A DNA stretch of 64,000 nucleotides, taken from the NCBI GenBank assembly GCA_903921205.1, contig CAIXPF010000051.1, positions 1 through 64,000 on the forward strand, read 5' to 3'. The stretch is from an uncultured Acidimicrobiia bacterium. Its GTDB lineage: Bacteria; Actinomycetota; Acidimicrobiia; Acidimicrobiales; CAIXPF01. The notes beneath the pieces are model-generated. The model had not been told where the DNA came from and made no database searches. It saw only the letters and a program-made list of their open reading frames with translations. Positions 22,439 to 49,986 of the stretch are shown here, piece after piece. A program made the translations under genes and the position numbers. Numbering within the stretch: position 1 is the first letter of the stretch; every line of letters starts with the position of its first letter.

Positions 22439-23029
22439 TCAGAGCACCCAGGTCCGGAGCAACTCGGGTCCGCGGACTGCCCAGTCCTCGGCGACGACGG
22501 CGAACTGCATGTGGTCCTCCCACTCGCCGTTGATCTGCAGCAGGCCCACCGCCACACCTTCGCAACGGAACTGCAGTTTCTCCATGACCCGTCGACTCGG
22601 CTGGTTCCGGGGAACGATCGAGATCAGCAACCGGTGCAGTACCAGGTCCTCGAACGCGAAGCGGGCGAGCACCACCACCGCCTCCGGGCAGTAGCTGTTC
22701 CCGGCCTGCTCGACATCGACCCAGTAGCCCACGTTGCCGGCCTGCATCGGCCCTCGCTGCACGGCCGAGAGGTTGATCTCACCGCTGAAACGGCCGTCGA
22801 CGAAGATGCCGAAGCCGTACCCGGTACCGAGCTGCCGCTCCCGCTGGCGGGCGGAGCACCGGGCGGCGAACGCGTCGAAGCTCTCCGCAGCATCGGGCTG
22901 ACCCGGCATCCGTCGGGGTTCCCAGCGGGTGAGCCAGTCGACGTTGCGCCGGCGTACCGTCTGGAACGCCCCGAAATCGGAAACGGTCAACGGACGCAGG
23001 ACGACCCGCCGGCCGGTCAACGTCGACAT
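22439..23029 (-). CDS. GNAT acetyltransferase, RimJ/RimL type
   Basis: A 196-residue N-acetyltransferase. RRVVLRPLTVSDFGAF opens the domain, FSGEINLSAVQRG and GNVGYWVDVEQAGN build the central sheet, and LLISIVPRNQPSRRVMEKLQFRCEG is the acetyl-CoA/C-terminal signature of the RimJ group, which acetylates protein N-termini or ribosomal proteins. It follows the aminotransferase by 7 bp and is probably co-transcribed. Confidence 0.87.
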   Translation of the reverse strand: MSTLTGRRVVLRPLTVSDFGAFQTVRRRNVDWLTRWEPRRMPGQPDAAESFDAFAARCSARQRERQLGTGYGFGIFVDGRFSGEINLSAVQRGPMQAGNVGYWVDVEQAGNSYCPEAVVVLARFAFEDLVLHRLLISIVPRNQPSRRVMEKLQFRCEGVAVGLLQINGEWEDHMQFAVVAEDWAVRGPELLRTWVL

Positions 23030-46362: not shown

Positions 46363-46983
46363 TCAGAGATCGTCGCGGTTGTAGACCTGCATGGCGGCGT
46401 CGATGCCGTCGGCAAGGATCTTCTCGACTGCGTCCGCAGCCCGCTGCACCGCGACGTCGAGCTCCACCCGGTCGGCCTTCGACGGGCGTCCCAGCACCCA
46501 GTCCACCCCGCGGCCGGGCGGCTTGCCGATCCCCACCCGCACACGCAGGAACTCCGCATGGTGCAGATGGGCCTGGATCGACTTCAGCCCGTTGTTGCCC
46601 GCGAGACCGCCCCCGCGCTTGAGCCGTATCTTCCCCGGTGGAAGGTCCAACTCGTCGTGCACCACGACCAACGCCTCGGGTGCGTCGATGCCGTGGCGAC
46701 GGCACAGCTGCCGCACCGACGCCCCGGCGTCGTTGTAGTACGTGGTCGGAAAGGCCAGGGTCAGCCGTTTGAGGCCGAGGCGGGCCTCGGACGCCAGCGC
46801 CAGTTCCTTCGCCTTGCGCAGAGGTGCCTGGTGACGACGGGCCAGCACCTCGACGACCTCGAGGCCGACGTTGTGCCGGGTCCCGGCATACTGCTCGCCC
46901 GGGTTGCCCAGCCCCACGACCAGCAGGTCGGCGGGCGTACCCCGGCGGACTTCGTCAGCTCTCGCCGGAGCCTTCCTCAGCAT
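46363..46983 (-). CDS. pth: Peptidyl-tRNA hydrolase
   Basis: A 206-residue enzyme that cleaves peptidyl-tRNA released from stalled ribosomes. VVGLGNPGEQYAGTRHNVGLEVVE holds the catalytic His, FPTTYYNDAGASV and VVVHDELDLPPGKIRLKRGGGLAGNNGLKSI are the other signatures, and RVRVGIGKPPG-VDWVLGRP follows. I start at ATG 46983, which overlaps rplY by 29 bp; an ATG at 47010 is the alternative. The rplY-pth pair is conserved. FPTTYYND replaces the usual KPxTYMN with modest divergence. Confidence 0.95.
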   Translation of the reverse strand: MLRKAPARADEVRRGTPADLLVVGLGNPGEQYAGTRHNVGLEVVEVLARRHQAPLRKAKELALASEARLGLKRLTLAFPTTYYNDAGASVRQLCRRHGIDAPEALVVVHDELDLPPGKIRLKRGGGLAGNNGLKSIQAHLHHAEFLRVRVGIGKPPGRGVDWVLGRPSKADRVELDVAVQRAADAVEKILADGIDAAMQVYNRDDL

Positions 46984-47578
46984 CGGCCTCGCCGGCCCCT
47001 TCCGCTGCATGTGCCCCGGCGTGACCCACCGGGGTGCCGCACACCGCGACCACGGTCTGCGGGTCGCCGTGCACCGTGACGCCTGCGGGAAGCTTCAGGT
47101 CGCTGATCCACAGTTCCTGACCCTCGGTGATGTGGGACACATCGACGGGCAACTCGGTCGGGATGGCACCGGGCTTGGCGGTGATCTGCAGATGGTGGAC
47201 CAGCAGCACGACCTTGTCGACCACCGAGGCACCGAGCTCGTCCATGCCGGCGAGGGCCAGCTGGACCTCGACGGTGACTTCCTCGTCGGGATCGACGGCG
47301 AGGAAGTCGACGTGCAGCACGTCACGGCGGACCGGGTGGCGCTGCAGCTCCTTGACCAGGGTCAGGTGCTCCTTGCCCGCCACACGCAGCCGGATCGGAG
47401 CGGACAGACCGCCCTCGGCGTTGAGCGCACGACGCAGCTCGGGCCACTGCACCGACAGCACGATCGGCTCCATGCCCATGCCGTAGAGCACGCCGGGGAT
47501 GCTGCCCTCGGCGCGCAGGCGGCCCGACGGGCGCGAGCCCTTCTGGCGACCGGTCTGTGCTTCCAGCACCTGAGACAT
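46955..47578 (-). CDS. rplY: Ribosomal protein bL25 (CTC/TL5 form)
   Basis: A 207-residue 50S protein binding 5S rRNA. LRAEGSIPGVLYGMGMEP and VKELQRHPVRRDVLHVDFLAVDPDE are the L25 core, followed by the CTC-type C-terminal domain and an acidic Ala/Glu-rich tail. GGAGAG is 6 nt before the ATG, and TAGAGT (47622-47617, minus) is a plausible -10 giving a leader of about 35 nt. Confidence 0.96.
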   Translation of the reverse strand: MSQVLEAQTGRQKGSRPSGRLRAEGSIPGVLYGMGMEPIVLSVQWPELRRALNAEGGLSAPIRLRVAGKEHLTLVKELQRHPVRRDVLHVDFLAVDPDEEVTVEVQLALAGMDELGASVVDKVVLLVHHLQITAKPGAIPTELPVDVSHITEGQELWISDLKLPAGVTVHGDPQTVVAVCGTPVGHAGAHAAEGAGEADAEEGSGES

Positions 47579-47678: not shown

Positions 47679-48671
47679 TCAGCTCTGGTTCTGACCGTCG
47701 AAGATCTCCGACACCGAGCTGTCCTCGAAGACCGCCCGGATGGCGTCGGCGATGATGCCGGCCACCGAGAGCTGCTCGATCTTGTCGATCTGCTTGTCCG
47801 GGGTCAGCGGCAGCGTGTCGGTGACCACGACCTTCTCGATGACCGAGTTCTTCAGCCGCTCGATGGCCGGGCCGGACAGCACGGCGTGGGTCGCCGCGGC
47901 CAGCACCCGCGCAGCCCCGGCGCGGGTCAGCTGCTCGGCGGCGGCCACCATCGTCCCGGCGGTGTCGATCATGTCGTCGATCAGCACGCACGTCTTGCCC
48001 TCGACCTCGCCCACCAGGGCGAGCGCCTCGACGGAGTTCATCTCCTCCTTGCGGCGCTGCTTGTAGACGAAGGCCAGGCCGGCGTGCAGGGCGTTGGCAT
48101 AGCGGGCCGCGACCTTCACCCGGCCGGTGTCGGGCGACACGATGACCAGGTCGTCACCGAACTGCCGGAGGTAGTCCACCAGCACCGGCATGGCGGTGAG
48201 GTGGTCGACCGGACCGTTGAAGAAACCTTGGATCTGCCCCGAGTGCAGGTCCACCGACAGCAGCCGCTTGGCGCCGGCCGTCTCGAACAGGTTCGCCACC
48301 AGTCGGGCCGTGATGGGCTCACGGCCCGAGGACTTCCGGTCCTGGCGGGCATACCCGTAGAACGGCATCACCACCGTGATCCGCTTGGCCGAGGCGCGCT
48401 TGGCGGCGTCGACCATGATCATCTGCTCCATCAACGCGTCGTTGAGCGAGCCCGCGTCACTGTTGCAGTGCGTCTGGATGATGAACAGGTCCCCACCGCG
48501 GATCGACTCCTCGAACCGGCAATGGATCTCGCCGTTGGCGAAGTTCGCCGTGTTGGGGTCGAGCAACTCGACGCCGAGATGCCCGGCGATGCGCTCCGCG
48601 AGCGGGCGGTTGAACCGCCCCGAGGCGAGCTGCAGTCGTTTGTTCGCCGGTAAGGTGGCCATGCGGCTCAT
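47679..48671 (-). CDS. prs: Ribose-phosphate pyrophosphokinase (PRPP synthetase)
   Basis: A 330-residue enzyme making PRPP from ribose 5-phosphate and ATP for nucleotide, His and NAD synthesis. NFANGEIHCRFEESIRG, QTHCNSDAGSLNDALMEQM, MPFYGYARQDRKSSGREPITARLVA, DLHSGQIQGFF, VIVSPDTGRVKVA and the PRPP loop VLIDDMIDTAGTM are complete. ATG 48671 (GGGAG, 9 nt upstream) is preferred over 48662 and 48686. It supplies PRPP to NadC in principle. Confidence 0.97.
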   Translation of the reverse strand: MSRMATLPANKRLQLASGRFNRPLAERIAGHLGVELLDPNTANFANGEIHCRFEESIRGGDLFIIQTHCNSDAGSLNDALMEQMIMVDAAKRASAKRITVVMPFYGYARQDRKSSGREPITARLVANLFETAGAKRLLSVDLHSGQIQGFFNGPVDHLTAMPVLVDYLRQFGDDLVIVSPDTGRVKVAARYANALHAGLAFVYKQRRKEEMNSVEALALVGEVEGKTCVLIDDMIDTAGTMVAAAEQLTRAGAARVLAAATHAVLSGPAIERLKNSVIEKVVVTDTLPLTPDKQIDKIEQLSVAGIIADAIRAVFEDSSVSEIFDGQNQS

Positions 48672-48769
48672 GCCCGAGACTCCCATCTGCGTCCGTCCAC
48701 GGCGACAGCTTGGCAGATGAGGCGTCGCGGATCAGCAGCCGGATGCGCGAGTTGGCTTTGCGGGCCCGC

Positions 48770-49885
48770 TCAGTCGGCCATCGCGACCGTCGTGAACGGC
48801 GCGATCCGCGCCGAGGCCTCCACCTGTGCACCGGGCTCGAGGCTGACGAACGGGCCGACCTCGGCGGCCGGGCCGACCTCCGCGTCACGACCGACCGTCT
48901 TCTCCACCCTGGCGCCCGCACCGACCATGCAGTCCACCAGGCGGGTGTCGGGGCCGACCTCGGCACCCTCGCCGATCACCGTGCGACCCTGCAGCAACGT
49001 GTTGGGGAACAGGGTCACATCGCGGCCCAGCGACACCGTGGCGTCGATGTAGCAGGTAGCCGGATCGACCATGGTGACGCCCGATGCCAGCCAGCGATCG
49101 TTGATGCGACGGCGCAACTCGGCCTCGACGAGCGCGAGATGCAGGCGGTCGTCGACCTCGGCGAGCTCGCTGAGATCGGACACCTCGACGGAACCGACCC
49201 GGTAACCGGCCCGGTGCAGCACCTCGACCACATCGGGCAGCCGGTACTCGTGGTCGTCGTTGTCGGGGGTGAGACGACGCAGGGCCGCACCGAGCACGCC
49301 ACGACGGAAGCAGTAGACGGAGGCCGACACCTCGGCGGCGCCGTCGGGGTCCTCCGCGCCCGGCTCACCGGCGTCGAGGTCGTCGGAGAACGGCACGATC
49401 CTCGCCACCGTGCCGTCCTTGGCCCGTACGACCCTGCCACGCCCGGCGCGATCGGCCGGCCGGGCCACCAGCACCGTGCACGCCGCGTCCGCCTCACGGT
49501 GGGCCTGCACCAACGCGGCCACCGACGCCGGGGCCAGCAACGGCATGTCGGCGGGCAGGACGACCACGTCGTCGTCACCGAGGTCGTCGTCGCCGAGCGC
49601 GGCGAGGGCGACGGCGAGCGCGTCACCGGTCCCGCGCGGTGTGCCCTGCTCCACGAACTCGATCGGTAGGTGGGCGACGTCGTCCTGCACCCGCTTGGTG
49701 ACCCGCTCCGCCGAGGACCCGACGACGACCACGGCGCGGTCCACGTCGGAGCCGGCGAGCGCGTCGATCACGTAGAGCAACATCGGACGACCGCACAGCA
49801 GATGGAGGGGCTTGGGCCGTTCGGAACGCATCCTCGCCCCCTGGCCCGCAGCGAGCACCACCGCCGACAACGAACGCCGCATCAT
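48770..49885 (-). CDS. glmU: GlmU-type UDP-GlcNAc pyrophosphorylase lacking the acetyltransferase active site
   Basis: A 371-residue protein. The uridyltransferase domain is intact: VVLAAGQGARMRSERPKPL, EQGTPRGTGDAL, LPADMPLLAP, VSASVYCFRR, EYRLPDVVE and EVDDRLHLALVEAELRRRIN. The left-handed beta-helix begins (VDPATCYIDATVSLGRDVTLFPNT) but stops after EVGPFVSLEPG-FTTVAMAD. The regions with the catalytic His, Lys and the acetyl-CoA site are missing, and the conserved RLRPG reads SLEPG. Normal GlmU is about 450-490 residues. Only 98 bp separate its stop from prs and hold no remnant. ATG 49885 follows CAGG; the longer frame runs into tRNA-Gln. Confidence 0.92.
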   Translation of the reverse strand: MMRRSLSAVVLAAGQGARMRSERPKPLHLLCGRPMLLYVIDALAGSDVDRAVVVVGSSAERVTKRVQDDVAHLPIEFVEQGTPRGTGDALAVALAALGDDDLGDDDVVVLPADMPLLAPASVAALVQAHREADAACTVLVARPADRAGRGRVVRAKDGTVARIVPFSDDLDAGEPGAEDPDGAAEVSASVYCFRRGVLGAALRRLTPDNDDHEYRLPDVVEVLHRAGYRVGSVEVSDLSELAEVDDRLHLALVEAELRRRINDRWLASGVTMVDPATCYIDATVSLGRDVTLFPNTLLQGRTVIGEGAEVGPDTRLVDCMVGAGARVEKTVGRDAEVGPAAEVGPFVSLEPGAQVEASARIAPFTTVAMAD

Positions 49886-49910: not shown

Positions 49911-49986
49911 TGGCTGGCGGGGCAGGAATCGAACCTGCAACTTCCTGATCCAAAGTCAGGCGTTCTGCCAATTGAACTACCCGCCA
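49911..49986 (-). tRNA. tRNA-Gln (anticodon UUG)
   Basis: A 76-nt cloverleaf on the minus strand, with acceptor TGGCGGG/CCCGCCA, D-arm GTTCAATTGGCAGAAC, anticodon stem-loop CCTGA-CTTTGGA-TCAGG (TTG), and T-arm GCAGGTTCGATTCCTGC. Discriminator G and an encoded CCA complete it. It lies 25 bp upstream of glmU on the same strand. Confidence 0.97.

Follow-up and report, generated by a model that had tools for sequence, protein, structure and literature searches.

An order-wide GlmU truncation in Acidimicrobiales and a candidate GNAT acetyltransferase that may replace the lost half

We focused on a glmU homologue in a 64,000-nucleotide stretch of DNA from an uncultured Acidimicrobiia bacterium (contig CAIXPF010000051.1; hereafter, the window). 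The gene, whose product is referred to as P0001, is encoded on the minus strand next to prs, rplY and pth. The features of the locus are as follows.

46363..47578, minus strand: rplY (bL25) and pth, from ORFs, assigned by sequence resemblance
47679..48686, minus strand: prs (ribose-phosphate diphosphokinase), the next gene downstream of glmU, assigned by sequence resemblance
48770..49885 including the stop codon, minus strand: truncated glmU homologue P0001, 371 aa (translation, TIGR01173, dN/dS)
48773..49081, minus strand: left-handed beta-helix stub of P0001, residues 269-371 (Hexapep PF00132, alignment)
48836-48838, minus strand: Glu350 of P0001, at the E. coli Arg333 position (alignment)
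49151..49885, minus strand: nucleotidyltransferase (uridyltransferase) domain of P0001, residues 1-245 (E. coli GlmU alignment; PF12804, 83.6 bits)
49911..49986, minus strand: tRNA-Gln(TTG) (ARAGORN), directly upstream of glmU and bounding its 5' end

The tRNA-Gln(TTG) lies 25 bases from the P0001 start, and a 405-aa ORF with a TTG start was rejected as an artefact that reads through this tRNA. In the profile search, P0001 matched positions 2-348 of the 452 in TIGR01173 with 278.5-279.5 bits, which is below the family cut-off of 366.85 bits and does not qualify it as a bifunctional GlmU. It aligned with the M. tuberculosis GlmU over residues 7-367 (~218 bits), and its beta-helix stub is about half of the usual GlmU helix. 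Residues were compared with the sequence that we take to be that of E. coli GlmU, for which the length (456) and the residue identities at known positions agreed. Based on this alignment, E. coli Arg333, the second R of RLRPG, is replaced by Glu350 in P0001 (SLEPG), Lys351 is aligned to Ala, and His363, Tyr366, Asn377, Asn386 and Lys392 fall past the P0001 stop. None of the residues by which the acetyltransferase centre was judged (R333, K351, H363, Y366, N377 and K392) is retained. The initial annotation had described a GlmU with a helix ending where this centre begins and an arginine lost from the RLRPG segment; the profile match and the alignment bear out both points.

No acetyltransferase remnant was found between the P0001 stop and prs, as had also been claimed; the gap of ~83 bases is too short for the missing ~100 aa, and a remnant therefore cannot fit there. 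The P0001 end point is similar in four close relatives (L030-L033), and the pairwise dN/dS of the window's glmU is 0.07-0.2 (0.06-0.16 for the helix stub alone). Because the relatives share the end point and purifying selection acts on this gene, the truncation is neither a decaying pseudogene nor an assembly error, the latter being ruled out by the end point in L030-L033 together with the low dN/dS. The glmU-prs-rplY-pth block is conserved, with an identical order at locus L105 (see below), and the order ispE-glmU-prs recurs in genomes of family f57, which belongs to another order.

The window's genome measures 4.36 Mb and is listed as 100% complete with 2.2% contamination. A TIGR01173 search of this genome detected no second GlmU, leaving P0001 as the sole GlmU homologue and not the specialised paralogue of a full-length copy, a reservation that had accompanied the initial annotation. 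In the next-best match (67 bits), a mannose-1-P-type enzyme is joined to a mutase; ManC-like and RmlA-like proteins come next, and the remaining nucleotidyltransferases, read by eye, are GalU-, RfbF-, IspD-, MobA- and CMP-sugar-synthetase-like. A 451-aa frame considered as a second GlmU (L001) is MobA-like instead, and the candidates for an archaeal-type bifunctional enzyme (on C22, C78 and C184) are ManC-, RmlA- and ManC/ManB-like proteins without an acetyltransferase part. The eukaryote-type UAP (PF01704) is absent from the window's genome and from 58 of the 59 genomes searched, and the window's genome showed no further recognisable UDP-GlcNAc pyrophosphorylase. An unfamiliar sugar-phosphate nucleotidyltransferase-like protein (AAGLGSRFGGTKQL) is encoded at G000:C95:30790-31170 (L008) and is a possible alternative pyrophosphorylase.

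Relatives of P0001 were present in 48 of 59 related genomes. The GlmUs of the same order (Acidimicrobiales), read from DNA, are 363-382 aa long (n = 30), and R333, K351 and all later residues of the centre are lost in all 30 of those aligned. GlmUs from the rest of the phylum measure 455-491 aa and keep every acetyltransferase residue examined (n = 30). Among 149 genomes of the class, the 84 with full-length GlmU all belong to other orders and none to Acidimicrobiales, and every Acidimicrobiales genome with a detectable GlmU has the truncated form. The other orders of the class retain the full-length form, except for two f57 genomes (G281 and G314), in which GlmUs of 246 and 249 aa have lost the entire helix. 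A third lineage, truncated independently, belongs to another class of the phylum (genus g83; G076:C6:53311-54354 and G098:C21:9816-10823; L105 and L106). In an N-terminal-domain tree, full-length relatives surround the f57 and g83 stubs, and as the f57 stubs lie inside the f57 full-length GlmUs, the loss in f57 is independent. This tree, built on a short domain, also places some full-length GlmUs from another order within the same-order stubs, so the half may have been lost once or several times in the order.

With the centre lost and no second GlmU found, the view of the initial annotation that acetylation must be done by another enzyme is supported, and the search that it proposed for a separate acetyltransferase yielded a candidate, the predicted GNAT P0002.

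G000:C43:2536-2964, minus strand: P0002, a 143-aa GNAT acetyltransferase, in the window's genome but outside the window

At an ortholog threshold of E <= 1e-30 across the 149 genomes of the class, P0002 was detected in 46 of 48 genomes with truncated GlmU, in 9 of 9 same-order genomes without a recognisable GlmU, in 3 of 84 with full-length GlmU, and in none of the eight remaining genomes of other orders, to which no GlmU status was assigned; the overall Fisher value for this co-occurrence ignores kinship. By order, P0002 occurs in 53/55 same-order genomes versus 5/94 others, and it is still present in the same-order genomes that lack a recognisable GlmU at 95-98% completeness (G039, G040, G058, G178, G309, G316 and G318). 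Within f57, both truncated-GlmU genomes carry P0002, versus none of the 10 with full-length GlmU (Fisher p = 0.015). The co-occurrence is near-perfect in these two lineages; inside the order it is one inherited trait, and the independent contrast is provided by the two f57 genomes. Their P0002 copies lie apart from each other in the P0002 tree, and contamination is unlikely for the G314 contig, with a GC of 0.61 for both contigs, a tetranucleotide correlation of ~0.95, and neighbours common with G281. The truncated-GlmU genomes without a P0002 match are G282 and G292, possibly due to assembly gaps. The three genomes with both P0002 and full-length GlmU belong to family f110 and may represent a redundant intermediate; given these genomes, P0002 may have another role.

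P0002 belongs to the GNAT superfamily based on its PF00583 match (58.1 bits, cut-off 20.7). QLS and IEDVxV are among the motifs invariant in 16 P0002 orthologs, and the IEDVVV of P0002 aligns with VEDVVV/IEDIAV in what we take to be the human and yeast GNA1 sequences. The ortholog profile matched 3fb3, presumably the T. brucei GNA1 structure, at 9.7e-11 and C. elegans GNA1 (4ag7) at 4.8e-7, with uncharacterised GNATs scoring higher, and the AlphaFold model of ortholog L228 (pLDDT 95.7) matched many GNATs including the T. brucei and C. parvum GNA1s. GNA1 is near P0002 in both profile and fold searches, is not the single best match, and shows 23-24% identity in the case of the GNA1 structures. 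Fold comparison was set aside as a way of naming the substrate, as it yields GNAT only. This fold does not reveal the substrate, and GlcN-phosphate is compatible with P0002 and not proven. P0002 is not adjacent to pathway genes, and no GNAT or hexapeptide gene was evident beside glmM/glmS or glmU in the loci examined. In several genomes (L112/L220, L138, L186, L190, L197 and L155), P0002 lies beside or near genes for a NUDIX hydrolase, whose N-terminal extension (ALSRWAETLSAIARTGL...) is conserved, and for a PAC2-family protein.

Based on these sequence comparisons, we consider it fairly probable that the acetyltransferase half of GlmU was lost in the ancestor of Acidimicrobiales and replaced by P0002. 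GlcN-phosphate would then be N-acetylated by a separate, non-homologous GNAT, and acetylation and uridylation would be split over two proteins, with a nucleotidyltransferase of the GlmU type. We infer that P0002 acetylates GlcN-6-P or GlcN-1-P. As the canonical glmM is kept, acetylation of GlcN-1-P would fit without further change, and the GlcN-6-P route would need a mutase accepting GlcNAc-6-P.

The other half of P0001 keeps the uridyltransferase catalytic core, i.e., R18, K25, Q80 (E. coli Q76) and D113 (E. coli D105), and G81 and T82 (E. coli numbering) are also kept in f1, the family of the window's genome. K25, Q76 and D105 are essential in the uridyltransferase (PMC10128056). The GlcNAc-pocket and metal residues (Y139, E154, N169, Y197 and N227) are not retained in P0001, in which the swaps are Y139 to R149, E154 to P165, N169 to S187, Y197 to R215, G225 to E243 and N227 to D245. 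All six of these positions are replaced in 6/6 f1 genomes, and comparable pocket losses were found in families f13, f18, f32, f42 and f43, with f42 also lacking K25 and D105; most other families of the order have an intact uridyltransferase site. The initial picture was of a loss in one gene with an intact uridyltransferase; the trait is order-wide instead, and the sugar pocket is altered in f1. From its residues, the remaining domain in f1 still looks like a working nucleotidyltransferase, which may have changed its substrate or may still make UDP-GlcNAc, perhaps with weaker specificity, and the stub appears to have become free to diverge once acetylation was done elsewhere. A GlmU homologue at G046:C306:7685-8785 (L331) has K25, D105 and the sugar pocket replaced with the open frame kept, and is probably no ordinary nucleotidyltransferase any more.

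It is a real possibility, if somewhat short of an even one, that the f1 remnant has switched to another sugar-1-phosphate and that UDP-GlcNAc uridylation is performed by, for example, a GlmR/YvcK-type accessory uridyltransferase. Such a switch would affect the half that remains and could hold alongside the P0002 explanation. It is favoured by the replacement of E154, N169, Y197, G225 and N227 throughout f1, the like losses in f13, f18, f32, f42 and f43, the lack of a recognisable GlmU in several well-complete same-order genomes, and the low dN/dS, which argues for a retained function; however, f1 still has R18, K25, Q76, G81, T82 and D105, the window's genome has neither PF01704 nor another recognised UDP-GlcNAc pyrophosphorylase, and, judging by RmlA-type enzymes, N227D could still bind metal. 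GlmR forms UDP-GlcNAc from GlcNAc-1-P and is an accessory uridyltransferase of other bacteria (PMC10128056). We entertain only tentatively, and lean against, a broader scenario of order-wide GNAT replacement with parallel replacements elsewhere, in which the freed remnant turned to another sugar nucleotide in f1 and was lost in other families.

It seems unlikely that a different acetyltransferase (a stand-alone hexapeptide protein or another GNAT) acts, with P0002 being merely a lineage marker. Several hexapeptide acetyltransferases (NeuD-like, CysE-like, CapG-like and gamma-carbonic-anhydrase-like) and 17 PF00583 GNATs are indeed encoded in the window's genome, and P0002 coexists with full-length GlmU in three genomes. 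However, of the GlmU acetyltransferase block the hexapeptide proteins show no more than a short generic match (profile 369-446, <=25.5 bits), and the f57 contrast favours P0002 over other acetyltransferases. We also compared the PF00583 members of six small same-order genomes and the window's genome, with the G027 matches read in part. The small genomes have few GNATs, and the acetyltransferase groups common to 7/7 genomes are RimI, an MshD-like protein and P0002. The window itself encodes a RimJ/RimL-like GNAT (22439-23029, minus strand), relatives of which occur in several small genomes of the order.

That no de novo GlcNAc is needed, owing to uptake or recycling, is very improbable: host-associated bacteria without pathway steps are thought to get GlcNAc from their surroundings (PMC7725333), but the canonical glmM and a GlmS homologue are retained in the window's genome and across the order. 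Acetylation by a giant GlmS, which adjoins glmM in most same-order genomes and has an extension without a Pfam match, is hardly credible and largely refuted by its distribution, as it also occurs alongside full-length GlmU in other orders (G074) and an ordinary GlmS is found in several truncated-GlmU genomes (G008, G013, G037, G237 and others).

In bacteria, the bifunctional GlmU is held to be essential, and both of its domains are pursued as drug targets. P0001 shares the N-terminal nucleotidyltransferase, the first helix half and the neighbour prs with the bifunctional GlmUs of E. coli and M. tuberculosis, but it lacks the second helix half and the acetyltransferase centre, has Glu in place of R333, and has a replaced GlcNAc pocket. 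The 331-residue E. coli GlmU chain (PDB 1fwy and 1fxj), which keeps uridyltransferase activity, likewise comprises the pyrophosphorylase domain and part of the helix without the acetyltransferase, whereas the P0001 truncation is natural, inherited order-wide, and leaves a somewhat longer stub. Eukaryotic GNA1, which acts on GlcN-6-P, is likewise a separate GNAT for acetylation, as proposed for P0002, with an IEDVVV-type motif and nearby profile and fold matches, although P0002 is distant from it (23-24% to the GNA1 structures) and would have a GlmU-type partner. The split over two proteins would also resemble that of eukaryotic GNA1 and UAP, with a UAP-type nucleotidyltransferase in eukaryotes and a GlmU-type one in Acidimicrobiales. 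Apicomplexa GNA1 evolved independently and is non-orthologous (PMC5838249). A natural loss of the C-terminal acetyltransferase domain is likewise recorded for the GlmU of Chlorobaculum limnaeum, of another phylum, in a single mention in passages of PMC7725333 that propose no replacement and also describe GlmU loss in FCB-group bacteria and Chlamydia.

A literature search without most subscription journals returned no report of truncated GlmU in Acidimicrobiales. What is new here is the order-wide scope, the naming of a candidate backed by an independent contrast, and the change in the uridyltransferase pocket of f1. If the replacement by P0002 is true, a free-living order would lack the GlmU acetyltransferase half and use a GNAT substitute, suggesting that this cell-wall precursor step is replaceable, and a testable function would follow for the unannotated GNATs of this order and possibly for those of Anaerolineae. 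Genes labelled glmU in Acidimicrobiales may perform neither textbook reaction. Homologues 63-70% identical to P0002 were found in Anaerolineae (L254, L274 and L280; Chloroflexi, Anaerolineaceae and Longilinea arvoryzae), the L. arvoryzae protein (L280) being the one at 63%.

The giant GlmS of the window's genome (G000:C24:2537-5986, L097:2537-5986) has 1150 aa and adjoins glmM outside the window. About 250 aa are inserted in its glutaminase domain and ~300 aa follow the SIS domains, both additions being highly conserved without a Pfam match. This form is patchy across the class, and in some families an ordinary GlmS takes its place at the locus. In G040 (same order, 1.8 Mb, 98% complete), the giant GlmS query had no match; this genome possibly has no GlmS and might depend on external amino sugars.
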